Shown: positions 6,132-35,200 of the stretch, in pieces
Numbering within the stretch: position 1 is the stretch's first letter
How the letters are laid out: every line of letters starts with the position of its first letter
From: an uncultured beta proteobacterium
GTDB taxonomy: Bacteria > Pseudomonadota > Gammaproteobacteria > Burkholderiales > Rhodocyclaceae
Direction: 5' to 3'
NCBI GenBank assembly: GCA_903933395.1
Contig: CAIZKA010000147.1
Span: 1-36,901 of the forward strand
Length of the DNA: 36,901 nt
The notes under the pieces: model-generated
Database searches by the model: none
The model's input: the letters and a program-made list of their open reading frames with translations, nothing else
Told to the model about the DNA's origin: nothing
Position numbers and translations under genes: made by a program

Positions 6132-6145
6132 TTGTTCTGGATCAA
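6132..6145. promoter_or_regulatory. FNR/DNR-like box upstream of sNOR-like operon
   Basis: TTGTTCTGGATCAA, 9/10 match to TTGAT-N4-ATCAA; about 100 nt upstream of the 6245 start. Confidence 0.5.
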
Positions 6146-6244
6146 ATACCGCACCTCCTTGCTCGGGATATCCTCGCCCCACAGTTTTTGGCAAGTTCGT
6201 TTCAACCGCGCGCTGCAGCGCGCCAACCGTTAGAGGGCAGAAAC

Positions 6245-6421: not shown

Positions 6422-6961
6422 ATGAGTGCAATCCTGCCGCCGTCAGAGCGGTTGTGGTGGAAACAGCCGATCGCCGGTCAAGAATGGGCCTGGATCGGTA
6501 TCGCCTTCGTCTGGGCCATGATCATGTTCATCATGATGGTGTATTGGCACATCAACGGTAAGCAGAACCTTTCCAACGAGGTCTACAAGACCACGACGGA
6601 GATGTTCCAGGCCAAGACGGATGCCTTCGTCAAGGAAAACACCATCCGCACCGAGACCGAACAGAACATCCCGGTGGTCAAGCCCAACGCCAAGGGCGAG
6701 GCCTTCCTGCTGGCGCGGCTGTGGTCCTGGTATCCGATCCTCGAGCTCGAGGCCGGCAAGACCTACAAGATCCACCTCTCGGCGGTCGATTACAACCACG
6801 GTTTCTCGCTGCAGCCGACCAACATCAACATCCAGGTCATCCCCGGCTACGAGCACGTGGTCAAGATGACGCCGACCAAGGCGGGCACCTACGCCATCGT
6901 CTGCAACGAATACTGCGGCATCGGGCACCACACGATGCTTGGCCGTATTTACGTGAAATAA
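6422..6961 (+). CDS. Cytochrome c oxidase subunit II-like protein with CuA site
   Basis: N-terminal TM; CuA ligands in DYNHGFSLQP and CNEYCGIGHHTM (CxxxCxxxHxxM). Confidence 0.9.
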   Translation: MSAILPPSERLWWKQPIAGQEWAWIGIAFVWAMIMFIMMVYWHINGKQNLSNEVYKTTTEMFQAKTDAFVKENTIRTETEQNIPVVKPNAKGEAFLLARLWSWYPILELEAGKTYKIHLSAVDYNHGFSLQPTNINIQVIPGYEHVVKMTPTKAGTYAIVCNEYCGIGHHTMLGRIYVK

Positions 6962-6973
6962 GGGGAACCACAG

Positions 6974-8671
6974 ATGGCAACTACCTACCGTACCTGTCCG
7001 CGCACCGGGCTGCAGTTCGACCTCGACGCCGACAAACTGATGCGCTGGAACGCCGTAGCCGGCGTGCTCTGGCTGCTGGTGGGCGGCATCACCGCCCTCC
7101 TGGTGATCCTGACCCGCTGGCCGGCGATCAAGCTGCTGCCGGCCGACCAGTTCTACCTGATTCTGACTGCCCACGGCATCGACATGCTGATCCTGTGGAT
7201 CATCTTCTTCGAGATGGCGGTGCTCTACTTCGCCTCATCGACCCTGCTGCGCTGCCGGATTGCCACGCCATGGCTGGGATGGGTCCAGTTCTGGCTGATG
7301 GTCGTCGGCGGCATCATGACCAACGTCGCCATCTTCCAGGGCGGCTCGAGCGTGATGTTCACCTCCTACGTGCCGATGCAGGCCGCGCCGCACTTCTACC
7401 TCGGCATCATCCTCTTTGCCGTCGGTGCGCTGATCGGCACCGGCGTGTTCTTCGGCACCCTGGTGGTTGCCAAGCGCGAGAAGACCTATGTCGGCTCGAT
7501 CCCGCTGGTTACTTTCGGCGCCCTGACGGCAGCGATCATCGCGGTGTTTACCATCGCCTCCGGCGCCGCGATCCTGATCCCGACCTTCTTCTGGTCGATG
7601 GGCTGGATCAAGGAAATCGACGCCCAGCTGTATCGCATGGTCTGGTGGGCGCTGGGTCACTCCTCGCAGCAGATCAACGTCGCCGCTCACGTCTCGATCT
7701 GGTATCTGGTCGCCGCCGTGGCCTTCGGCGCCAAGCCGCTGTCCGAGAAAGTCTCGCGCTTCGCCTTCCTGCTCTACATCCTCTTCCTGCAACTGGCCAG
7801 TGCGCACCACCTGCTGTCCGACCCGGGCATGAGCGCGGAGTGGAAGGTGCTGAACACCTCCTACTTCATGTACTTCGCGGTACTGGCCTCGATGATCCAC
7901 GGCTTCACGGTTCCCGGTGCGATCGAAGCGGCACAGCGCAAGAAGGGCTTCAACAACGGCCTGTTCGAGTGGCTGCGCAAGGCACCCTGGGGCAACCCGG
8001 TGTTCTCCGGCATGTTCATCTCGCTGGTCGGCTTCGGCTTCATCGGCGGCATCTCGGGCGTCGTGCTCGGCACCGAGCAGATCAACATGCTGATGCACAA
8101 CACCTTCTACGTCCCGGGCCACTTCCACGCCACGGTCGTCGTCGGCACCACGCTGGCCTTCATGTCGATCACCTACCTGCTGGTGCCGACGCTGTTCCGC
8201 CGCGAAATGCTGTTCCCGAAACTGTGCCAGATCCAGCCCTACCTCTACGGCATCAGCATGATCGTGCTGTCGCTGGTGATGATGGGCGCGGGCACCCTCG
8301 GTGTTTCACGCCGTCACTGGGACATGGCCTTCTCGGGCGCGCCCTTCCAGTACGAGTGGCCGGGTTCCGCCTACCTGATGATGGGTCTCACCGGCATCTT
8401 CGGCGTGATCGCGGTCATCGGCGGCGGCCTCTGGATCGGCCTCGTGGTGCTGTCGCTGCTGTTCGGCAAGAAGCTCGACGGCGGCGCGACCTCCGACAAG
8501 CCGACACCGATCCCCGACCAGACCGTGGCAGCCTCCGCGTCCCATTCCGGCAGCGAAGAGCACGTCGGCGTACCGGGCACGGTGGTGCTGGCCATTACCC
8601 TGCTGGTCTGTTTCGTCCTCTACTACTTCGTGAACTGGAAGTACCTGTCCGAGGTATGGGGTCTCAGCTAA
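6974..8671 (+). CDS. Heme-copper oxidase superfamily subunit I, sNOR-like (probable NO reductase)
   Basis: Polytopic; His ligands LTAHGID, WALGHSSQQINV, ASAHHLLSDPG, HNTFYVPGHFHATV; B-type HxxxY tyrosine replaced by Gln (HSSQQ). Confidence 0.8.
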   Translation: MATTYRTCPRTGLQFDLDADKLMRWNAVAGVLWLLVGGITALLVILTRWPAIKLLPADQFYLILTAHGIDMLILWIIFFEMAVLYFASSTLLRCRIATPWLGWVQFWLMVVGGIMTNVAIFQGGSSVMFTSYVPMQAAPHFYLGIILFAVGALIGTGVFFGTLVVAKREKTYVGSIPLVTFGALTAAIIAVFTIASGAAILIPTFFWSMGWIKEIDAQLYRMVWWALGHSSQQINVAAHVSIWYLVAAVAFGAKPLSEKVSRFAFLLYILFLQLASAHHLLSDPGMSAEWKVLNTSYFMYFAVLASMIHGFTVPGAIEAAQRKKGFNNGLFEWLRKAPWGNPVFSGMFISLVGFGFIGGISGVVLGTEQINMLMHNTFYVPGHFHATVVVGTTLAFMSITYLLVPTLFRREMLFPKLCQIQPYLYGISMIVLSLVMMGAGTLGVSRRHWDMAFSGAPFQYEWPGSAYLMMGLTGIFGVIAVIGGGLWIGLVVLSLLFGKKLDGGATSDKPTPIPDQTVAASASHSGSEEHVGVPGTVVLAITLLVCFVLYYFVNWKYLSEVWGLS

Positions 8672-8793: not shown

Positions 8794-9684
8794 ATGGAAT
8801 CGACGCTAGCCACCAAAAGAACTTCCGGCCTCAGCCTGCGCACCATCGCCGGCGTGTTCAAGCTGCGCATCGGCATCGTCATCACCTTCACCGCCCTGGC
8901 CGGCCTGGCGGTCAGTTCCGGTCCCGGCCTGAGCATCGCGCAACTCGTCACCCTGACCCTGGCCGTGCTGATCTCCTCGGCCAGCGCCGGCGCCTTCAAC
9001 CAGTATTACGAACACGACACCGACCCGCTGATGTCGCGCACGAAGAACCGGCCCTTCGCCACCGGCGAGGTTCAGCACGGCCCGGTCTGGCTGGTGGTCA
9101 TCTTCGGCCTCATGACGGTGTCGGTCATCGCCGCCTGGATGGCGCTGAATGCCTGGTCGGCGCTGTTCACCTTCCTCGGCGCCTTCTTCTACGCCATCGT
9201 CTATACGGTCTGGCTCAAGCGCCGCACCTGGCTCAACATCGTCTTCGGCGGCCTGGCCGGCAGCTGGGCCGTGCTGGCCGGCGCCACTGCCGCCGACCCG
9301 CAGGTCGGCGCCGTACCCCTGGCGCTGGCCTTCGTCCTCTTCCTGTGGACGCCGCCGCACTTCTGGAGCCTGGCCATCGCCTACCGCGACGACTACGCGG
9401 CGGCAGGCGTGCCCATGCTGCCCGTCGTGGTCGGCGACCGGCGTGCCGCCAAGGTGATTTTCGGCAGCACCCTGGCGCTGGTGGCGGCCTCGATGCTGCC
9501 GCTGGCCTTCGGCCTCGGCGCCATCTACTTCGCCGGCGCCGCGACCGGCGGCTTCCTGTTCATCCAGAAGGCATGGCGCCTGGTGCAGAACACCAACCGC
9601 CAGACTGCCATGATCTGCTTCCACGCTTCGCTGGCCCAGTTGACTCTGGTCCTCACGGCAGCCATCATCGACGCCCGCTTCTAG
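8794..9684 (+). CDS. ctaB: Protoheme IX farnesyltransferase (heme O synthase)
   Basis: UbiA-type prenyltransferase; FNQYYEHDTDPLMSRTKNRPFATG and later YRDDYAAAGVPMLPVV motifs. Confidence 0.9.
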   Translation: MESTLATKRTSGLSLRTIAGVFKLRIGIVITFTALAGLAVSSGPGLSIAQLVTLTLAVLISSASAGAFNQYYEHDTDPLMSRTKNRPFATGEVQHGPVWLVVIFGLMTVSVIAAWMALNAWSALFTFLGAFFYAIVYTVWLKRRTWLNIVFGGLAGSWAVLAGATAADPQVGAVPLALAFVLFLWTPPHFWSLAIAYRDDYAAAGVPMLPVVVGDRRAAKVIFGSTLALVAASMLPLAFGLGAIYFAGAATGGFLFIQKAWRLVQNTNRQTAMICFHASLAQLTLVLTAAIIDARF

Positions 9685-9699
9685 CCTGGGCTTCACCCC

Positions 9700-10596
9700 G
9701 TGATTCGTTCCATGTTCCGTGCCGCGCTCGCGGCACTCATGCTTGCCGCTGCGCCGGGAGTCGGCGCCGGCGACACGCCGAAGCCTGCATCCGCGGCGCC
9801 CGCGCCCGGCCTCGTCGCCGTGCCGCAGGGCGACCGCAGCGGCCTGACGCTCCTCACCCTCGACAGCGAGGCCGCCTACAAACGCTCGCAGGATGCAGTC
9901 GGCAAGCCGGTGGGCGACCATGTGCTGCTCGACCGCCAGGGCCGACCCGTGCGCCTGGCCGATTACAAGGGCAAGCCGCTGCTGGTGAATTTCATCTACA
10001 CCGCCTGCTTCCAGGTCTGCCCCACTACCACCAGGAATTTGCAGAAGGCCGTCGAGAATACCGTCGGCATGCTCGGGGCGGATCGTTTCAACGTCGTCAG
10101 CATCGGCTTCAACCAGCCCTTCGATTCTCCGCAGGCGATGAAGGCCTTCGCGACCCAGCACGGCATCCACCTGCCCAACTGGGAATTCCTCAGTCCGGCA
10201 GCCGCCATCGTCGATGAACTGACGCAGAATTTCGGCTTCAGCTATGCCGCCACCACCGCCGGCTTCGACCACGTGAACCAGGTCACCCTGGTCGATGCCG
10301 ACGGCAGGATCGTCCGCCAGATCTATGGCGAGCGCTTCACCGCCCAGGATCTCGCCGAGCCGCTCAAGGCCATGATCACCGGCGCGCCGATTCCGCCGCA
10401 GACCGGCACGCTGGCGGAACTGGTCGATCGCGTAAGGATCATCTGCTCGGTGTATGACCCGGTCACCGGGCGCTACCGCACCAACTACGCGCTCTACTTC
10501 GAAATCGCCGGCTTCATCAGCTTCATGGCCTTCATGGGCTGGGTGGCCTGGAGCTTCATGCGCAAGCGCGGCGGCGAGAAGATTCAACGCGGTTGA
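9700..10596 (+). CDS. SCO1/SenC-family copper chaperone with C-terminal TM helix
   Basis: GTG start; signal peptide; YTACFQVCPTTT (CxxxCP); C-terminal YFEIAGFISFMAFMGWVAWSFM. Confidence 0.85.
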   Translation: MIRSMFRAALAALMLAAAPGVGAGDTPKPASAAPAPGLVAVPQGDRSGLTLLTLDSEAAYKRSQDAVGKPVGDHVLLDRQGRPVRLADYKGKPLLVNFIYTACFQVCPTTTRNLQKAVENTVGMLGADRFNVVSIGFNQPFDSPQAMKAFATQHGIHLPNWEFLSPAAAIVDELTQNFGFSYAATTAGFDHVNQVTLVDADGRIVRQIYGERFTAQDLAEPLKAMITGAPIPPQTGTLAELVDRVRIICSVYDPVTGRYRTNYALYFEIAGFISFMAFMGWVAWSFMRKRGGEKIQRG

Positions 10597-10606
10597 TTCG
10601 AGTCAA
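10593..10606. promoter_or_regulatory. FNR/DNR-like box upstream of cyt b-ferredoxin-MvhD fusion
   Basis: TTGATTCGAGTCAA, 9/10 match to TTGAT-N4-ATCAA; overlaps the SCO stop codon; 76 nt gap to the GTG at 10682. Confidence 0.5.
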
Positions 10607-10681: not shown

Positions 10682-12232
10682 GTGAGCTTGCAAGCTGTAG
10701 CCCAGACCGGCTTCGAACGCATCGAGAACGCCTTCGACGCGTCCTTCGGCGGTGCCGACAATCCGTTGCGCCATCTCGGCGCATTCGGACTGTTCTTCCT
10801 CTGGATCCTGGTTGCCAGCGGCCTGTACCTCTACACCGTGCTCGACACCAGCATCGAAGGCGTCTACAGCTCGATCGGCTGGCTCACGCGCGAACAGTGG
10901 TATCTCGGCGGCGTGCTGCGCAGCCTGCACCGCTACGCCTCCGACGCCTTTGTCATCGTCATGTTCCTGCACCTGCTGCGCGAATGGGCCTGCGGCCGCT
11001 ACCACGGCTTCCGCTTCTACTCCTGGATCACCGGCGTGCCGCTGATCTGGCTGGTCTATGTTTCGGGCATCGGCGGCTACTGGATCGTCTGGGATCGCGT
11101 GGCGCAGTTCTCGGCCGTTGCGACGATGGAACTGCTCGACTGGCTGCCGATTTTCAGCGAGCCGGCGGCGCGCAATTTCCTCGCTCCCTACTCGATCAGC
11201 GACCGCTTCTTCACCGTGCTCGTCTTCATCCACATCGGCGTGCCGCTGATGCTGATCCTCGGCCTCTGGGCCCATGTCAATCGCATCAGCCGGGTCGACT
11301 ACCTGCCGACGCGGCGCGCGATGCTGGCGACCCTGACTGCCTTCCTGCTGCTGGCCGCGATCAAACCGGCAGTAAGCGAACTTCCCGCCGACCTGACCCT
11401 GACACCGGTCGACGTCAGGCTGGACTGGTTCTTCCTTTTCCTCCATCCGCTGACCGACCTCACTTCGCCGGCCGCGATTTGGACGTTGATCTTCGGCGCC
11501 ACGATACTGCTTTTCGCCCTGCCCTTTCTGCCGCATCCGCAGGCACAGCCGATCGCCGTGGTCGATGCCGCCAACTGCAACGGCTGCAGCCGCTGCCACG
11601 TCGACTGCCCCTACGAGGCGATCACCATGGCGCCGCATCCCGACAAGGCGGACCACAGGATCGCCGTCGTCGATGCCGACAACTGCGCCGGCTGCGGCAT
11701 CTGCGCAGGTTCATGCCCGTCGTCGACGCCCTTCCGCAGCCAGGAAAGACTGGTGACCGGCATCGACATGCCGCAGCAGCCGGTCGACCTCCAGCGCCAG
11801 GAACTCGAAGCAAAGCTTGCGCAACTGAAGGGCAGGACCCGGCTCGTCGTCTTCGGTTGCGACCAGGGCGCGAATGTCAGCGCGCTGGCCACGGCGGATA
11901 CCGCCACCCTGAGCCTGATCTGCACCGGCATGCTGCCGCCGTCCTTCGTCGAATACGCACTGCGCAGCGGCGCCGACGGCGTCGTAGTCGCCGGCTGTCG
12001 CGAGGGCGGCTGCGATTTCCGCCTCGGCATGGAATGGACGCGGGAGCGCCTCTCCCGCCAACGCGAACCGCATCTGCGCAACCTCGTCCCCCTCGACCGC
12101 CTGCAACTGGTGCATGCTTCGCGCAGCGAAGGCAGGCAACTCGCCGCGGCGGTCAATGAATTCAGAACCCGACTCGAAACTGATATGACAGCAAGCACCA
12201 GGCCACCCGCCTACTCCCGGAGAAACAGATGA
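10682..12232 (+). CDS. Fusion protein: diheme cytochrome b + 2x[4Fe-4S] ferredoxin + MvhD/hydrogenase iron-sulfur subunit-like domain
   Basis: Cyt b with two Hx13H pairs (LHRYASDAFVIVMFLH; FIHIGVPLMLILGLWAH), LDWFFLFLHP; CNGCSRCHVDCP and CAGCGICAGSCP clusters; MvhD-like FGCDQGAN...ICTGMLPPSFVEYALRSGADGVVVAGCREGGCDFRLG. GTG start inferred. Confidence 0.85.
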   Translation: MSLQAVAQTGFERIENAFDASFGGADNPLRHLGAFGLFFLWILVASGLYLYTVLDTSIEGVYSSIGWLTREQWYLGGVLRSLHRYASDAFVIVMFLHLLREWACGRYHGFRFYSWITGVPLIWLVYVSGIGGYWIVWDRVAQFSAVATMELLDWLPIFSEPAARNFLAPYSISDRFFTVLVFIHIGVPLMLILGLWAHVNRISRVDYLPTRRAMLATLTAFLLLAAIKPAVSELPADLTLTPVDVRLDWFFLFLHPLTDLTSPAAIWTLIFGATILLFALPFLPHPQAQPIAVVDAANCNGCSRCHVDCPYEAITMAPHPDKADHRIAVVDADNCAGCGICAGSCPSSTPFRSQERLVTGIDMPQQPVDLQRQELEAKLAQLKGRTRLVVFGCDQGANVSALATADTATLSLICTGMLPPSFVEYALRSGADGVVVAGCREGGCDFRLGMEWTRERLSRQREPHLRNLVPLDRLQLVHASRSEGRQLAAAVNEFRTRLETDMTASTRPPAYSRRNR

Positions 12233-12346: not shown

Positions 12347-12847
12347 ATGCCTAAGCCCGCCGCCATCGTCGGTCAGATCATCCTCTACGGCGCCTTTGCC
12401 GCCTTCATCGGCTATTTCTCGACCGCGCCGACCTACAAGCAGATCGGCGACGACGTCGCGCTGATCAAGCTGTCGATGAGCCACCTCGGCGGCCGCGAGT
12501 GCCGCAAGCGCACACCCGAGGAACTGGCGAAAATGCCGCCCAACATGCGCGCGCCGCTGGATTGCCCGCGGGGCCGCTCCGACATCAAGCTGGTGCTGGA
12601 ACTCGACGGCAAGCCGATGTTCGAGACCGTGATGCATCCCACGGGACTGTCCGGCGACGGCGTCTCCACGGTCTACAAGCGCTTTGAGGTGAAGGCCGGC
12701 ACCTACAAGCTGGCGGTGAAGATGAACGACAACCTGATCCTCAACACCGACTTCAATTTCGTCAAGGAAGCGCAGATCACGCTGAAACCGGCACAGGTGC
12801 TGGTGATCGATTTCAACCCGGACAAGGGCGGGCTGTTCTTCCAGTAG
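12347..12847 (+). CDS. Unknown membrane-anchored periplasmic protein
   Basis: MPKPAAIVGQIILYGAFAAFIGYFSTAPTYKQIGDDVALIKLSMSH...; one N-terminal TM; lies between the two cyt b fusions on the same strand. Confidence 0.7.
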   Translation: MPKPAAIVGQIILYGAFAAFIGYFSTAPTYKQIGDDVALIKLSMSHLGGRECRKRTPEELAKMPPNMRAPLDCPRGRSDIKLVLELDGKPMFETVMHPTGLSGDGVSTVYKRFEVKAGTYKLAVKMNDNLILNTDFNFVKEAQITLKPAQVLVIDFNPDKGGLFFQ

Positions 12848-12887
12848 ATGCAAAAACAAATGCGAATTGAACTCCCCCACCCCCCAA

Positions 12888-12963
12888 CCCCCGCCCAGGC
12901 GGGGGTGACTGTCAGCTCGGCAAGCTCGACAGTGACGGGGTACTTCGTTCATCGCAACGAAGT
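12888..12963 (+). promoter_or_regulatory. Cluster of three consecutive hairpins in intergenic region
   Basis: CCCCCGCCCAGGCGGGGG; ACTGTC...GACAGT; ACTTCGTT-CATCGC-AACGAAGT. Confidence 0.5.
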
Positions 12964-13005
12964 GTATTCCACATCAATCCCCATCCCCCTGCGCGGACAC
13001 AGACC

Positions 13006-14916
13006 ATGCTGACCCTCCTGCAAAAAATCGTGCGCTGGTTCTTCATGCGCGCCGAAAACCTGTTCAACGTCGCCTTCGGCGAGAAGCTGAACCCTTTCTA
13101 CCATCTCGGCACCATCAGCTTCTGGCAGTTCTGGCTCTTGATCGGCACCGGCATCTACCTCTACATCTTCGCCGATACCGCCGTGCATGACGCCTACGAA
13201 TCGGTGGAGCGCATCACCCACGACCAGTGGTGGGCCGGCGGCATCATGCGCAGCATCCACCGCTACGCCACCGACGGCATGATCCTGACCATGCTGCTGC
13301 ACATGCTGCGGCACTTCGCCTACGACCGTTACCGCGGCTTCCGCTGGTTCTCCTGGGCCACCGGCATCGCCCTGATCTGGCTGGTGTATATCTCGGGCCT
13401 GAACGGCTTCATGCTGGTGTGGGACAAGCTGGCGCAGTTCGTCGTGGTCGCCACCGCCGAATGGTTCGATGCGCTGCCGATGTTCAACGGCACCCTGATC
13501 CGCAACTTCATCTACCAGGAAAACGTCACCAGCCGGCTGTTCACCCTGCTCGCCTTCATCCACCTCGGCGCACCGCTGATCGCCGGCGTCATCGCCTGGA
13601 TACATGTGCAGCGCGTGCCGCGCGCCCACGTCAATCCGCCGCGGTCGATCGCGATCGCCTTCACATTGATGTTCGTCGTGCTCGCCCTGGTCAAGCCGGT
13701 GGTGAGTCAGGGCGGCGAAGCCGACATGCTGGTGGTGCCGACCAATATCGCCTTTGACTGGTTCCAGATGCCGGTGCTGGCGCTGGTCTATGTCGTCAAT
13801 CCGCTCTACCTCTGGTTCGGCATCGTCGGCCTGTCGCTGCTGCTGTTCCTTGCTCCCTGGCTGCCGCCCAAGCGCATGGGTGCCGGCAAGGCCGAAGCCC
13901 TGGTGACCTTCCACCCCGACCACCGGGCCGTCGCCATCCGCTTCGACGAAACCCTGCTCGATGCCGGCCTGCGCCAGGACATCAACCTGCCCTACGAGTG
14001 CCGCAACGGCGGCTGCGGCAATTGCAAATGCACGGTGCTCTCCGGCAATGTGGACCCCGGCCTTTATCAACCGAGCGCGCTGTCGGCAGAGGAACTCGCC
14101 GCCGGCAAGGTGCTGCTGTGCTGCGCTACGGCGCTGGGCGATGTCGAGATCGAATATGAATCATCCGCGGCGCCCGCCGCGATCCGGCAATACACCGCGC
14201 GCGTGCTTCGTATGGAAAAGCTGACCCACGACGTGATGCGCGTCATGCTCAAGCTACCCGAAGGACAGCAGATTCCGTTCAAGGCCGGGCAGTACATCAA
14301 CATCGTGCTCGATGACGGTCAGCACCGCGCCTTCTCCTTCGCCAATCCGCCGCACCAGCCGGACCTGATCGAACTGCAGATCCGCCTGATGCCGAATGGC
14401 CGCTTCACCACGCACGTCTTCGAGCAGATGAAGGTCGGCGATACCGTCAGGTTCGAAGGCCCGCTGGGCGATTTCTCCCTGCGCGAATCCGAGCGCCCCA
14501 TCGTCTTCGTCGCCGGCGCCACGGGCTTCGCCCCGGTCAAGAGCATGGTCGAGGACGCCTTCCATCGCGGCCTCAAGCGGCCCATCTACCTCTACTGGGG
14601 CGTGCGCCGGCTGGCCGACCTCTACCTGCCCGACCTGCCGCAAAGCTGGGCGAAGGAGCACGAGAACTTCCATTTCGTCCCGGTCCTTTCGGATGCCGCA
14701 CCCGAGGACAACTGGCAGGGCCGCACCGGCCTGGTGCACGAAGCCATCCTCGAGGATTTCCCCGACCTCAGGGGCAAGGAGATTTACGCCTGCGGCTCGG
14801 TGAAGATGGTCGAGGCGATCTTCCCCTCGCTGAAGAACCAGGGCGCCGAGGAAGGCATGTGCTTCTCCGATGCCTTCACCGTCTCGGCGCGCTCGATGGC
14901 CTTCCAGCCGAAGTAG
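13006..14916 (+). CDS. Fusion protein: diheme cytochrome b + plant-type [2Fe-2S] ferredoxin + FAD/NAD(P)H reductase
   Basis: Cyt b Hx13H pairs (IHRYATDGMILTMLLH; FIHLGAPLIAGVIAWIH), FDWF; CRNGGCGNCKC...LLCCA 2Fe-2S motif; RAFSFANPP (FAD), GATGFAPVKSM and ACGSVKMVEA (NAD(P)H). Confidence 0.88.
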   Translation: MLTLLQKIVRWFFMRAENLFNVAFGEKLNPFYHLGTISFWQFWLLIGTGIYLYIFADTAVHDAYESVERITHDQWWAGGIMRSIHRYATDGMILTMLLHMLRHFAYDRYRGFRWFSWATGIALIWLVYISGLNGFMLVWDKLAQFVVVATAEWFDALPMFNGTLIRNFIYQENVTSRLFTLLAFIHLGAPLIAGVIAWIHVQRVPRAHVNPPRSIAIAFTLMFVVLALVKPVVSQGGEADMLVVPTNIAFDWFQMPVLALVYVVNPLYLWFGIVGLSLLLFLAPWLPPKRMGAGKAEALVTFHPDHRAVAIRFDETLLDAGLRQDINLPYECRNGGCGNCKCTVLSGNVDPGLYQPSALSAEELAAGKVLLCCATALGDVEIEYESSAAPAAIRQYTARVLRMEKLTHDVMRVMLKLPEGQQIPFKAGQYINIVLDDGQHRAFSFANPPHQPDLIELQIRLMPNGRFTTHVFEQMKVGDTVRFEGPLGDFSLRESERPIVFVAGATGFAPVKSMVEDAFHRGLKRPIYLYWGVRRLADLYLPDLPQSWAKEHENFHFVPVLSDAAPEDNWQGRTGLVHEAILEDFPDLRGKEIYACGSVKMVEAIFPSLKNQGAEEGMCFSDAFTVSARSMAFQPK

Positions 14917-15045
14917 CCGGCGGGGATTCCGGAAAATCCGACGCCACGCGGCGACATGATTTATGTCGCCGGGCGATAGCGTCTGGTTGGTGATCTATCT
15001 TGCTTCGCAAAATGCCGCAAGTTTTAGGATCTGGGCGCAACTGGA

Positions 15046-15124
15046 AGGACTCACCTTTCTGCCGGCGCTCCCACATCTGCGCCTTCTGGCTTTCCGGGTA
15101 ATTGATCCTCGGCCTTCGTTTCAT
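15046..15124 (-). pseudogene. N-terminal remnant of IS30-family transposase
   Basis: MKRRPRINYPESQKAQMWERRQKGES matches the typical N terminus of IS30-type transposases; homology then breaks off. Confidence 0.5.
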
Positions 15125-15256
15125 TTGCAACACTCCATCTGCATATGCAGTTTCTAGTGGGTTGGGCCGCCACGAATTCTATGCAGCAACCTTGCCTGCC
15201 GGTGAAGCTGAATCCCATTGGCACAGCTTGCCGGCGGTCGGCGTGCTTCACTTCAA

Positions 15257-27322: not shown

Positions 27323-28657
27323 TTATCGCCGCTGCCAGCGCGCCATCGCCTTGAGGCAGACCAGCACGAACATGATGCCGCCGATGACGGCGATCAGGCC
27401 GCCGAGGCCCATCATGCCCATGCCGATCTTCTGCGGCAGCGTGGTCAGCGCCTGCTCGGCACCGGCCACCTTGCGCTGCACGCCGTAGCCGCCCGACCAG
27501 GCCAGGCCGAGGATATGAATCAACTGACCGCCGCCATACACATAGGGCTGCCAGCGCGCCATGCGGCCCTCGACCGCGCCGAAGCCGAGCTGCGGCAGCA
27601 GCACGTAGGCGAGGCCCATGAAAGCCAGCGTCACACCGACCGTGGAGCCGTGATAGTGCGCCGGGATCACCACGTTCACGCCCTGGATCATGTAGGCCAG
27701 CACGCCGCCGACGGCGAACAGGGAGAAGGAGGCGATGAAGGCCGACTTGGCCGCGTCGGGTGCCGCCTTGCGCGTCGCCCACAGGCTGAGGAAGCCGACC
27801 AGGATCAGCGGCGCCATGTAGGGATGGCCCCAGATCATCAGCTTGGCGAAGAGCTCCATGTGTGGCAGTTCGCCGGCGGGAATCGTGAAGTAGATCGCCG
27901 GCACCACCAGGAGAGGCAGCGCAGCGATCCAGAACATCGCCGACAGCGCGCGCGGGGATGCCACGACGGGCTGCCCAAGATGGGCAGCAATCCAAAGCCA
28001 GGCCACGACCATCAGGATCGCATGCTGGAACTGCAGGGTATGCCCGCCGCCCCAGAACAGGACTTCGAAATAAATCTTCTCCTCGATCTTCGGCACCACG
28101 ATCCAGGACCAGACAAAGGCCGCCAGCGCGAGAAAGCCCGCCACCGCGCCGAGAAAGGCACCGAGCTGTAGCGGCGCACCGAAAAAGGGCCGCGGCCAGG
28201 TGGTGAGCAGCGCACGCAACACCGCAAGACCGAAACCCGCGCCGCAAAGCCACAGCGAGGCGTAGAACACCGGCTGCTGCAGCACCGGAATGTAGTTGTT
28301 GAGCACCGGATCGGCGCCCGGCAGGAAGGGCGAAACCGTCATCACCGCGGTGCCCGTCGCCGCCAGCGCGAAGCCGCCCCAGCCCACCCAGGCGAAGCCA
28401 TCGCGCCCCAGCGCACTCCAGATCACCGCGGCGAAGGCCATGAACCATACCGCCACCGAAAGATCGACATGCACCACCAGCGCGGCGCGGAACATGTCCT
28501 TCAGCGGGAATATGTCCTGGATGCCCGGAGTGCGTGACAGCACCAGCAGAACGGCCAGCAGGCCGGAACCGATCAGCGCCAGCAGCCCCAACCACAGCCA
28601 TGCTTTGGCAAGGGTGTTTGCCGCTCCACCGGAAAGCCTTACGCTATGCGAATTCAC
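27323..28657 (-). CDS. Single-subunit heme-copper oxidase/NO reductase-like membrane protein (NorB/CcoN-like)
   Basis: About 12 TM helices; VHVDLSVAVWF, LFWGGGHTLQFQHA, PAHYHGSTVGVTLAFMG heme/metal-ligand segments; GTG start preceded by GGAG. Confidence 0.75.
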   Translation of the reverse strand: MNSHSVRLSGGAANTLAKAWLWLGLLALIGSGLLAVLLVLSRTPGIQDIFPLKDMFRAALVVHVDLSVAVWFMAFAAVIWSALGRDGFAWVGWGGFALAATGTAVMTVSPFLPGADPVLNNYIPVLQQPVFYASLWLCGAGFGLAVLRALLTTWPRPFFGAPLQLGAFLGAVAGFLALAAFVWSWIVVPKIEEKIYFEVLFWGGGHTLQFQHAILMVVAWLWIAAHLGQPVVASPRALSAMFWIAALPLLVVPAIYFTIPAGELPHMELFAKLMIWGHPYMAPLILVGFLSLWATRKAAPDAAKSAFIASFSLFAVGGVLAYMIQGVNVVIPAHYHGSTVGVTLAFMGLAYVLLPQLGFGAVEGRMARWQPYVYGGGQLIHILGLAWSGGYGVQRKVAGAEQALTTLPQKIGMGMMGLGGLIAVIGGIMFVLVCLKAMARWQRR

Positions 28658-28764
28658 TATATCTCCGTGAAAAATACTGAAGTATACGGCAATGGCCGGC
28701 GGCAAACGCTGTACACTGGCAGCCGCATAAACTCCCTCGCGAACTCCCTCCCGTTTTGAATCCC

Positions 28765-30110: not shown

Positions 30111-31010
30111 ATGAAAACGAAAATTGGCTGTTTCGCCGCATTCGGAGTCCTGCTTGGCTTTGGCTCTCAGCTTGCGCATGCTGCACCCGACTGGAGCCAG
30201 GTTGAAAAGCGCGATATTCCGGTCTTCCACCCCGGTGTCGTATCGCACGAGTGGATCATGAAAAAGTCTAGCCATAGCGGACGGACCGGTCTCACCAAGG
30301 GCGAAAGCTGCATCGCCTGCCACGAAGGCAAAAACGGTTTCGATATCGATTTGAAGAAGTTGGCCAGCAAGGAGTTGGAGCCGGTGGGCGCCCCGAAGAC
30401 CATGATCTTCCCGGTTACCGTGCAGTCCGTCTTCGACGATGCCAATCTGTATATCCGCCTGACCTTCAAGGCGCCGGCCGATGCGGCTGCCGAGGCATCC
30501 CGGGAAGATACATCGCCCAAGCACGAAGTGAAGGCGGCCATCATGCTGGGCAGCCCGCAGATCGAACACGTCACACAACACGGCTGCTGGCTGTCTTGCC
30601 ATAGTGATGTCCGCTCGATGCCGGGCGCCGATCCGAAGAAAAAGAAATACGTAGAACACGGCGACTTGGCTGGCGGTGCCTTCTACGACTACATCCAGTG
30701 GAAAAGCGGCGAAGCCGGCAAGGGTGCAACGCAGGTCGACGGCCATGTCACCAACGAGCGGGTAAACAAGGGCGGCAAGTCTCTGGTCAAGGCCGAGGGC
30801 GACGTCAAAGACGGCGTCTATACCGTCACATTCACGCGCAAGCTCAGCGGCAACAATGCCGATGGCGACCTAGCGCTCGCTGCAGGCCAGACCATCGCGT
30901 TCGGTATCGCGATTCACACCGACAAGACAGTGTGGCGTTTCCACCATGTCTCCATGGGTTATACCTTGGGGCTGCGCGCACCAGGCGACATCAAGGCGAT
31001 CAAGCAGTAA
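30111..31010 (+). CDS. Ethylbenzene dehydrogenase-related c-type cytochrome (cytochrome c-552/DMSO reductase-like heme-binding domain)
   Basis: Signal peptide; CIACHEGK and CWLSCHSD heme sites; VTVQSVFDDANLYIRLTFKA and AFGIAIHTDKTVWRFHHVSMGYTLGL. Confidence 0.75.
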   Translation: MKTKIGCFAAFGVLLGFGSQLAHAAPDWSQVEKRDIPVFHPGVVSHEWIMKKSSHSGRTGLTKGESCIACHEGKNGFDIDLKKLASKELEPVGAPKTMIFPVTVQSVFDDANLYIRLTFKAPADAAAEASREDTSPKHEVKAAIMLGSPQIEHVTQHGCWLSCHSDVRSMPGADPKKKKYVEHGDLAGGAFYDYIQWKSGEAGKGATQVDGHVTNERVNKGGKSLVKAEGDVKDGVYTVTFTRKLSGNNADGDLALAAGQTIAFGIAIHTDKTVWRFHHVSMGYTLGLRAPGDIKAIKQ

Positions 31011-32435: not shown

Positions 32436-34013
32436 TCAGTGGCTGGTGCCTTCCGAGCGCGTGATCTTGTTGTAGAGGTTGTACTTGCCCACCGGCTTGT
32501 CCATCGGGATGCGCTTGAGCTCCTTGAAGGTCGCGGCATCGAACACGATCAGCGCGCCGCCGTCGGCCTTGCGTTCCCACAGGCTGGCCAGGACGTACTT
32601 GCCGTCGCGGGTGAACTCGACGTGCGCCAGGGTCTTGCCCGGATCGGTCCTGATCTCGGCGACTTTTTCCAGCGTGCGCTTGTCGATCACCTGCAGCGTG
32701 TCCTTGCCTTTCGACATCATCGAATCGGTCCAGGCATAGGGCGTGTTTTCGTGGCTGCGCATGAAGAAGCCGGGGCCCAGCGTCGGGATGGTCTTGATCG
32801 TGCTCCAGTCCTTCATGTCGATCACCGTGATCAGGCCTTCCTTGAGGTTGGGCGTGGCCATCACCATGCGGTCCTGCGCGCCCTGCGGCGGGCGGTAGTT
32901 CCAGGTGATGCCGGAGCCGAGGTGCGGCATGCCCGGCAGCGTCAGGTCGGCGATCTTTTTCCTCACGTCGAGATGCACCACCTGGCCCTTGCCCGCCTCG
33001 CGGCTCGAACCCATCAGTTCCGAATAGTCCTGGGTGAAGAAGAAGTCGTCGAGCGGTTCGCTGAGGAAGGTGCGGCGCGCGTTGAGGAAGCCGGGAATGA
33101 AGCTGCCTTCCTTGTACTTGAAGTCGTGGACCATTCCGATGGGAATGTCGTCGGCCTTGGGGTTGTAGCTGATCTCCCAGACCTCGGGCACGTCTTTCAG
33201 AGCGGCGACGAAGCTCTGCCGCGGCGCGGCGTCATATACGGCAGACACGCGCGAGCTTTCCTTGCGATCCTTGTCCCGGACCTCATGCACCTTGAGCAGG
33301 TTGAGATCGGCGTCGAGCAGCACCAGCGTGTGCGGCAGGTAGTTGGCCACGGCGAGGTACTTGCCGTCGCCGGAGACGGCGACATTGCGCGTGTTGATGC
33401 CGGCGCGGATCTCGGCCACCACCTTGAGGTTCCAGATGTCGAACTTGGTGATCCAGCCATCGCGCGAGGCGAAGAAAACATAGCGCCCGTCCGGCGTGAA
33501 TTTCGGCCCGCCGTGCAGGGCGTAGCGGCTGGGGAAGCGGTGGATGGGCTCCAGCTTGTCGCCGTCGAGCACCGTGACATGGTGGTCGCCGGTCTCGACC
33601 ACGATGAACAGATTCATCATGTCCACGCCTTTGAAGATCCCGTCGGGTTGGGCCGGCAGGCTCCCCGGCGCGAAGTTGACGATGCGCGAGGCCTTGATGT
33701 CGGCTTCCGTGAGAGTCGGCGCCGGCGACACGGCGGTGTAGATGTAGTCCGCGAGCGCCGCAATCTCTTCCTTGTTCATGCGGTCGGCAAAGCCCAGCAT
33801 CTGCGTCGCAGCGCGCCCTTCGGCTATGGTCTTGACTGCTTCCGGCTTCCTCAGCCGCGCGAGGCTCTCCGGCAGCAGCGCGGGTCCGGTGATACCCAGC
33901 CGGCCGGGGCCATGGCAGACGACGCAATGCTGCTGGTAGAGGGCAGGAGCGTCGGCCGCCAGCAGCGGCATCGTGTTGGCCAACAAGCATGCCAGCGCAA
34001 GAATCTTCTTCAT
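32436..34013 (-). CDS. nirN: Cytochrome cd1-family protein, NirN-like (dihydro-heme d1 dehydrogenase)
   Basis: Signal peptide, CVVCH class I cytochrome c domain, eight-bladed d1-type propeller (TPDGRYVFFASRDGWITKFDIWNLKVVAEIRAGINTRNVAVSGDGKYLAVANY), C terminus KPVGKYNLYNKITRSEGTSH; ATGA overlap with nirJ. Confidence 0.75.
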   Translation of the reverse strand: MKKILALACLLANTMPLLAADAPALYQQHCVVCHGPGRLGITGPALLPESLARLRKPEAVKTIAEGRAATQMLGFADRMNKEEIAALADYIYTAVSPAPTLTEADIKASRIVNFAPGSLPAQPDGIFKGVDMMNLFIVVETGDHHVTVLDGDKLEPIHRFPSRYALHGGPKFTPDGRYVFFASRDGWITKFDIWNLKVVAEIRAGINTRNVAVSGDGKYLAVANYLPHTLVLLDADLNLLKVHEVRDKDRKESSRVSAVYDAAPRQSFVAALKDVPEVWEISYNPKADDIPIGMVHDFKYKEGSFIPGFLNARRTFLSEPLDDFFFTQDYSELMGSSREAGKGQVVHLDVRKKIADLTLPGMPHLGSGITWNYRPPQGAQDRMVMATPNLKEGLITVIDMKDWSTIKTIPTLGPGFFMRSHENTPYAWTDSMMSKGKDTLQVIDKRTLEKVAEIRTDPGKTLAHVEFTRDGKYVLASLWERKADGGALIVFDAATFKELKRIPMDKPVGKYNLYNKITRSEGTSH

Positions 34014-35152
34014 GCGATTCCTATCTCTTCGTCGCTCAGATAACAGCCCGGATCTTCCGACCAGGGATCGCCGCTCGTCTGCTGGGCGCGCACGCGCGTG
34101 TTGCCGCCGCAGATGTCGAAATGGATGCAGGCGCCGCAGCGCCCGCCGACCTTGCGCGGCTGCGCCTTGAGGCCGGCCATCAGCGGGTCGGACGTATCCA
34201 TCCAGATGTCGCCGAAGCTGCGCTCGCGCACATTGCCCAGATTGTGATGCCACCACATGGTGTCGGGATGGACGTTGCCGAGGTTGTCGATGTTGGCGAC
34301 ATTGACGCCGCTGGAATTGCCGCCCCACTGCGCGAGCTTCCTGCGGATGTGCTCGACTTTCTCCGGAAAACGCCGCTGCAGCCACATGAGCAGATAGACG
34401 CCGTCGGCATCGTTGTTGCCGGTGGTGAATTCCTTGACCAGCCCGCGCTCCTGATAGTCCCAGCAGGTGTCGAACAGCAGGTCCATGGCGCTCCTGGTCA
34501 TCTGGTGCAGGGCGTCGTCCTTGCGATTCTTGTTGCCGCGCCCGGCATAGTTCAGGTGCGAGAAATAGAAGCGGTCGATGCCCTCGTCCTCGACCAGCCT
34601 GAGCAGGCCGGGTAAATCCTGAAAGTTGTCCTGCGTCATCGTGTAACGCACGCCGACTTTCAGGCCCGCCTCGCGGCAAAGGCGGATGCCGGCCAGCGAA
34701 AGATCGAAGGCGCCCGCCATGCGGCGGAACTTGTCGTGAGTCGCACCGAGGCCGTCGAGGCTGACGCCGACGTAGTCGTAGCCTATCTCCCTGATGCGCT
34801 CGAACATCGGCTCGTCGATCAGCGTGCCGTTGGAGGACAGCGCGGTAAAAAACCCCATCTGCTTCGAACGCGCCGAGATCTCGAATATGTCCGGCCGCAG
34901 CAAGGGCTCGCCGCCGGAGAGGATCAACGCCGGCACGCGGAAAGCCTTGAGTTCGTCCATGACGCGGAATATTTCGCTCGTGCTCAACTCGCCGGCAAAG
35001 TCCTTGTCGGCGGAGATGGAGTAGCAGTGCTTGCAGGTCAGGTTGCAGCGCCGGATCAGGTTCCAGATGACAACCGGGCCCGGCGGCTTGCGCGTCGGTC
35101 CGACGGGCGAAGGCTGAGCGATTTCCTGCATGAACTGGGAGATTCTGAACAT
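34010..35152 (-). CDS. nirJ: Heme d1 biosynthesis radical SAM protein NirJ
   Basis: WNLIRRCNLTCKHCYSISADKDF radical SAM CxxxCxxC; C-terminal CGACIHFDICGGNTRVRA auxiliary cluster motif. Confidence 0.9.
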   Translation of the reverse strand: MFRISQFMQEIAQPSPVGPTRKPPGPVVIWNLIRRCNLTCKHCYSISADKDFAGELSTSEIFRVMDELKAFRVPALILSGGEPLLRPDIFEISARSKQMGFFTALSSNGTLIDEPMFERIREIGYDYVGVSLDGLGATHDKFRRMAGAFDLSLAGIRLCREAGLKVGVRYTMTQDNFQDLPGLLRLVEDEGIDRFYFSHLNYAGRGNKNRKDDALHQMTRSAMDLLFDTCWDYQERGLVKEFTTGNNDADGVYLLMWLQRRFPEKVEHIRRKLAQWGGNSSGVNVANIDNLGNVHPDTMWWHHNLGNVRERSFGDIWMDTSDPLMAGLKAQPRKVGGRCGACIHFDICGGNTRVRAQQTSGDPWSEDPGCYLSDEEIGIA

Positions 35153-35186
35153 GGCGACATTAGGCGCACAGGTAGTGCCGGGCGCT

Positions 35187-35200
35187 TTGATACCCGTCAA
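35187..35200. promoter_or_regulatory. FNR/DNR-like box upstream of nirJ
   Basis: TTGATACCCGTCAA, 9/10 match to TTGAT-N4-ATCAA; 35 nt upstream of nirJ start, in divergent intergenic region. Confidence 0.5.

Follow-up and report, generated by a model that had tools for sequence, protein, structure and literature searches.

A cytochrome b fused to a ferredoxin-flavin reductase and its co-inheritance with a putative eNOR-type nitric oxide reductase in Betaproteobacteria

The locus and the domains of the fusion protein

The stretch of DNA analyzed here, called the window, comprises 36,901 nucleotides of contig CAIZKA010000147.1 (assembly GCA_903933395.1) from an uncultured beta proteobacterium of the Rhodocyclaceae, whose source MAG is 83% complete. 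Its genes and regulatory features are given in Table 1. A heme-copper oxidase (HCO) operon lies upstream of a trio of genes encoding cyt b-FlpD, the predicted periplasmic protein h12347 and cyt b-Fdr, the last of which is the subject of this report.

Table 1. Features of the window (positions from its first nucleotide)
Feature	Position	Strand	Description
FNR/NNR-like box	6132..6145	.	TTGTTCTGGATCAA; ~290-330 bp upstream of coxII, conserved position
TM protein, ~50 aa	6239..6394	+	Conserved upstream of coxII
Subunit II (coxII)	6422..6961	+	CuA motif; C161, C165 and H169 conserved
Subunit I (coxI)	6974..8671	+	B-family heme-copper oxidase; Gln at catalytic Tyr position (H229-x-x-Q-Q233)
Heme o synthase CtaB/CyoE	8794..9684	+	Profile match
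SCO1/SenC copper chaperone	9700..10596	+	Profile match
FNR/NNR-like box, perfect	10593..10606	.	TTGATTCGAGTCAA; 89 bp before cyt b-FlpD
cyt b-FlpD	10682..12232	+	Cytochrome b, two [4Fe-4S], FlpD/MvhD domain
h12347	12347..12847	+	166 aa; one N-terminal TM helix, predicted periplasmic beta-sandwich; invariant Cys C52 and C73
cyt b-Fdr	13006..14916	+	ATG start, 636 aa; 6-TM cytochrome b (1-290), [2Fe-2S] (307-384), FAD/NAD(P) reductase (396-628)
hco2	27323..28705	-	Degenerate COX1-fold protein without CuB His-His pair

An earlier, sequence-only reading of this DNA had proposed that a cytochrome b, a [2Fe-2S] ferredoxin and an FAD/NAD(P)H reductase share one open reading frame and so form a complete cofactor chain on one polypeptide. 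The motifs on which it relied are all present in the sequence, and the proposal is supported by Pfam matches to Cytochrome_B (residues 25-201, 5.7e-16), Fer2 (311-376, 2.8e-15), FAD_binding_6 (399-490, 1.1e-15) and NAD_binding_1 (501-605, 2.1e-21), all four of which exceed the curated cut-off, as well as by the ligands. Heme ligands H85, H99, H186 and H200, which form two H-x13-H pairs on helices B and D, and the [2Fe-2S] cysteines 332, 337, 340 and 372 are present in all 81 cyt b-Fdr homologs, as are R441 and S444 of the FAD motif and G504, T506 and G507 of the NAD loop, with F443 retained in 80 homologs. A search for the same fusion elsewhere, which that reading had suggested, recovered it in 80 loci; together with the invariant ligands, these loci rule out a chance open reading frame or an assembly artefact. 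The fusion is widespread in wastewater and sediment Betaproteobacteria.

The four histidines in two H-x13-H pairs by which the cytochrome b/b6 superfamily is recognized are found in cyt b-Fdr, which could be aligned to the cytochrome b of the bc1 complex. Residues D251 and W252 of its DWF motif are invariant among the homologs and fall at the position of the PEWY-type Qo motif. In the alignment, DWF lies opposite PVWY, the Qo motif of this genome's own bc1 cytochrome b, so the membrane part is judged to be a cytochrome b comprising helices A-F, with an outer site that resembles Qo. The protein shares the four heme histidines, helices A-F and the Qo motif position with b6 and bc1 cytochromes b, but it has DWF in place of PEWY/PVWY, lacks helices G-H and a neighboring Rieske protein, and carries a soluble redox tail, as does its paralog. 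Loop charges follow the positive-inside rule (K+R of 4, 3, 3 and 3 inside versus 1, 3 and 0 outside) and indicate that the membrane part has its two ends on the cytoplasmic side, so the tail is predicted to be cytoplasmic. The AlphaFold model (pLDDT 75.7, pTM 0.50), like the tree described below, is uninformative on dimerization.

The tail has the motifs of plant-type [2Fe-2S] reductases of the BenC/NqrF class, namely C-x4-C-x2-C-xn-C, R-x-F/Y-S and a GATG-type loop. It resembles BenC, GcoB, T4moF and NqrF in sequence and fold as a [2Fe-2S]-FAD-NAD module, with 28-36% identity to the top three reductases and 23-24% to NqrF, and the BenC profile matches it at 2.8e-62, yet below all NCBIfam equivalog cut-offs. 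In contrast to the Fdr tail, the module in these four proteins is not fused to a membrane cytochrome b.

Partner proteins and the Gln-type heme-copper oxidase

The paralogy of cyt b-Fdr with the cytochrome b encoded at 10682, also put forward from the sequence, holds: cyt b-FlpD has the same cytochrome b followed by a tail of two [4Fe-4S] modules and FlpD, and all 12 Fe-S cysteines and the 4 histidines are invariant in 84 homologs. The suggestion that the swapped soluble modules mark a modular system stands in part: two tails and variant operons do exist, and the modules are not repeatedly reshuffled. A phylogeny of the cytochrome b halves, which the earlier reading had called for, separates the Fdr and FlpD types cleanly. 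Because the two types fall on either side of a single branch with 100/100 support, the tree fits one old duplication or module exchange, followed by parallel inheritance where both are carried, and gives no support to repeated shuffling of modules between paralogs. Two loci (L103 and L106) have long branches for the cyt b-FlpD copy although Fdr is present there as well, and function may be relaxed or changed in these copies.

Operons with only the FlpD type (L098-L102, L107 and L108, the last on an alphaproteobacterial plasmid), with a tandem FlpD pair (L096, L097) and with only the Fdr type (L104) were also found, in other lineages. Given these variants, the cytoplasmic tail appears to be an exchangeable entry or exit point for electrons, attached to a single conserved membrane core. 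Each variant operon has an h12347 homolog, except that L108 has a hypothetical protein in its place. The fold of h12347 is predicted with confidence (pLDDT 91). Comparisons with Pfam, NCBIfam and the PDB gave no confident match, so identification as a cupredoxin, or as any redox protein already known, is rejected, and a search for a cofactor motif found none. The protein is a candidate for a new subunit type.

The coxI product matches ba3 in the PDB, and the ~50-residue TM protein encoded at 6239 is presumably subunit IIa-like, by analogy with ba3 subunit IIa. All 58 coxI sequences compared have Gln for the catalytic Tyr; the CuB and heme ligands are kept apart from one Thermus copy with Lys at one heme position. 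That copy, on a Thermus thermophilus plasmid (L110, 7983-9668), is an eNOR-like subunit I with GHFKG, in which Lys replaces the expected heme His, and its gene adjoins nitrite reductase, Rrf2 and DUF542 genes. Replacement of the catalytic Tyr by Gln is the signature of eNOR (PMC8756737, Table A4), which is listed as biochemically characterized (PMC11388526). The signature residue suggests that coxI is an eNOR-type, putative NO reductase, and the Tyr-to-Gln change disfavors an ordinary O2 reductase. Like coxI, eNOR is a ba3 relative with H-x-x-Q-Q, the CuB and heme histidines and a CuA subunit II. The 'degenerate' ba3-a1 oxidase of magnetospirilla is, by its description, another B-family HCO that lacks the catalytic Tyr and has SCO in its operon; the passage on it in PMC6431628 mentions no cytochrome b fusion. 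A hemerythrin gene lies within the Defluviimonas operon, an NO context.

Farther downstream, hco2 retains both heme ligand sets, with the CuB His-His pair changed to I/A-Tyr and the Gln to Phe; the Tyr and the Phe are invariant in 39 homologs. It accompanies the trio in 35 of the 46 loci with enough flank and lies within the operon in some lineages. A second hco2-like copy is present in the source genome (L126).

Co-inheritance and regulation

Among loci with enough flanking sequence, the neighborhood of cyt b-Fdr includes the FlpD paralog in 70 of 70, h12347 in 76 of 77 and Q-type coxI in 50 of 58. Loci without coxI are those of Accumulibacter whose trio stands apart or those on contigs that stop short, and in 13 of 14 of these cases coxI lies at another site in the genome. 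In 300 genomes of the order, a Q-type HCO is present in 20 of the 21 with cyt b-Fdr versus 3 of the 279 others (Fisher p=4.9e-27), and in 399 genomes across the phylum it is present in 29 of the 34 with any cyt b type versus 1 of the 365 others (p=7.7e-38); these p-values overstate independence because the homolog sets overlap taxonomically and many of the genomes are related, and some contingency entries come from incomplete MAGs. All three HCO-only genomes of the order sample have cyt b-FlpD. A few genomes, namely G153, G680 and five MAGs, the majority incomplete, have the cyt b and no HCO, which counts against the reading favored below. The eNOR homologs of Thermus and Thermomicrobium differ from the present operon in that no cyt b complex adjoins them, so HCOs of this kind can in general function without such a complex.

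In 64 of 91 loci a perfect TTGAY-N4-RTCAA box precedes cyt b-FlpD by ~80-120 bp, versus 2.1% of random control stretches. Most loci also have a perfect or one-mismatch box ~290-330 bp before coxII (64/72 in the scanned stretch, two of the 64 being spurious through coordinate wrap; control 9%). FNR-type and NNR/DNR-type regulators share one motif. As predicted binding sites, the boxes indicate low-oxygen or NO control, and they do not separate the two because the motif is common to both regulator types. A scan of 12700-15200 for promoters and terminators found nothing.

A third box, also perfect, lies at 35187 and precedes a NirJ-like gene. That radical SAM gene and one for a cytochrome d1 domain protein (NirN/NirF-like) occupy 32436-35200 on the reverse strand, and an ethylbenzene-dehydrogenase-type heme-binding protein is encoded near the nir genes on the forward strand (30111-31010). 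The source genome encodes two full-length cytochrome d1 (NirS-like) proteins together with nir-type genes. These genes, like the hemerythrin gene and the neighbors of the Thermus homolog, are an NO context that favors the role in NO reduction discussed below. The genome also has a canonical bc1 cytochrome b followed by cytochrome c1, which rules out the trio as a replacement for bc1 in this genome.

Possible roles and the Accumulibacter cytochrome

Accumulibacter loci have the same gene trio, with a full-length fusion 76-79% identical to cyt b-Fdr. Four 'Ca. Accumulibacter' genomes have exactly three cytochromes b, namely that of bc1, a ~645-residue fusion and a ~535-residue paralog. We take the 'unusual cytochrome b/b6' of Accumulibacter to be a cytochrome b/b6 joined to NAD(P) and flavin domains, a description that cyt b-Fdr matches. 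Since the ~645-residue protein is the only flavin-fused cytochrome b in those four genomes, cyt b-Fdr is very probably that protein. PMC9041414 (citing Garcia Martin 2006 and Skennerton 2015) reports the proposal that the unusual cytochrome reoxidizes quinol in an anaerobic TCA cycle, letting succinate dehydrogenase operate in the forward direction without oxygen; the fusion has thus already been noticed in Accumulibacter, with an electron direction opposite to the one favored here (PMC9041414, citing Garcia Martin 2006). The present analysis adds to that published reading the tie to an eNOR-type HCO and the FlpD paralog.

What does the fusion do for the cell? Its near-constant co-inheritance with an HCO that bears the NOR signature suggests a part in carrying the cell's electrons into nitric oxide respiration or out of it. 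We see about an even chance that a cytochrome b complex without a Rieske protein operates together with an eNOR-type nitric oxide reductase, and that cyt b-Fdr connects this complex to NAD(P)H. For this reading we infer complex formation, the direction of electron flow, the use of quinone and NO as the substrate; domain order, invariant ligands, positive-inside topology, co-inheritance, neighborhood and the conserved boxes are the observations on which it builds. Electrons from cytoplasmic NAD(P)H would pass through FAD and [2Fe-2S] to the inner-side heme b and on to the outer-side heme b, from which they may reach a quinone near the DWF motif or go directly to the CuA subunit, and they would then be used to reduce NO, with FNR/NNR regulators in control when oxygen is low. 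The Fdr- and FlpD-tailed cytochromes b would probably pair like the two cytochromes b of bc1 or b6f, with h12347 as a putative periplasmic-side subunit, and the FlpD tail would couple another carrier to the complex. Neither a Rieske protein nor a cytochrome c (c1/f) was found among the conserved neighbors of the trio; given this and the lack of a cofactor motif in h12347, the step from cytochrome b to CuA would have no apparent carrier. It is possible, if rather doubtful, that the trio is an undescribed membrane complex that carries electrons from cytoplasmic NADH, and those linked to FlpD, across the membrane directly to the eNOR-type NO reductase, with bc1 and cytochrome c left out of the path. 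Our literature search found no description of the operon, and one may exist in papers beyond those covered.

The earlier suggestion of an NAD(P)H:quinone oxidoreductase fares less well than the cofactor chain from which it was drawn, as a stand-alone enzyme looks unlikely for a protein co-inherited with a Tyr-to-Gln HCO, cyt b-FlpD and a periplasmic partner. Such an enzyme would be a type-II-like dehydrogenase that feeds the quinone pool, with the HCO tied to it by regulation alone. Having the full chain on one polypeptide and NqrF among the structural relatives of the tail would suit this role, but the conserved outer-side heme ligands and Qo-like DWF would be superfluous for an inner-side reductase, and this, along with the tight co-inheritance with one HCO type, makes the account improbable in our judgment. 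The same outer-side features would be at home in a bifurcating quinol oxidase, in which one electron leaves the outer site for CuA and NO and the other travels through bL and bH to FAD/NAD+ or FlpD. Both hemes and the Qo-type motif are retained, and the tails of both paralogs are of types known for low-potential electrons; nevertheless, the conserved neighborhood offers neither a Rieske protein nor any other one-electron high-potential carrier, and we consider this mechanism very unlikely.

The direction proposed for Accumulibacter raises a different difficulty. Quinol would be oxidized and electrons would run from heme b through [2Fe-2S] and FAD to NAD(P)+, allowing succinate dehydrogenase to work forward anaerobically. 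FNR-type boxes fit anaerobic expression of this kind, and the presence of only three cytochromes b in the four Accumulibacter genomes agrees with the published assignment. However, taking electrons from ubiquinol to NAD(P)+ costs ~0.4 V on textbook potentials, so a driving force is required; no bifurcation site of the Rieske type is seen, and the co-inheritance with a NOR-like HCO is left unaccounted for. Reverse flow is therefore, in our estimate, quite unlikely.

Accumulibacter is central to wastewater phosphorus removal, and two of its puzzles, the anaerobic TCA cytochrome and the missing NO reductase, share one operon. If the trio does pass electrons straight into an eNOR-type NO reductase, the two could supply the NO reductase system that several Accumulibacter seem to lack, and this would be the true role of the 'anaerobic TCA' cytochrome. 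Should the favored reading hold, the capacity of sludge to form N2O is underestimated, as HCOs of this kind can carry the annotation of ordinary oxidases, and a respiratory connection between NAD(P)H and NO becomes open to direct test. Few Accumulibacter genomes have Nor, with UBA5574 listed as lacking one, and a 'ba3 oxidase' with little transcript change is mentioned in the same study (PMC6446978). A Gln-type HCO is present in UBA5574, and no long qNOR-type frame was found among its COX1 matches. The 'ba3 oxidase' of the transcript study may, we presume, be the Gln-type HCO.
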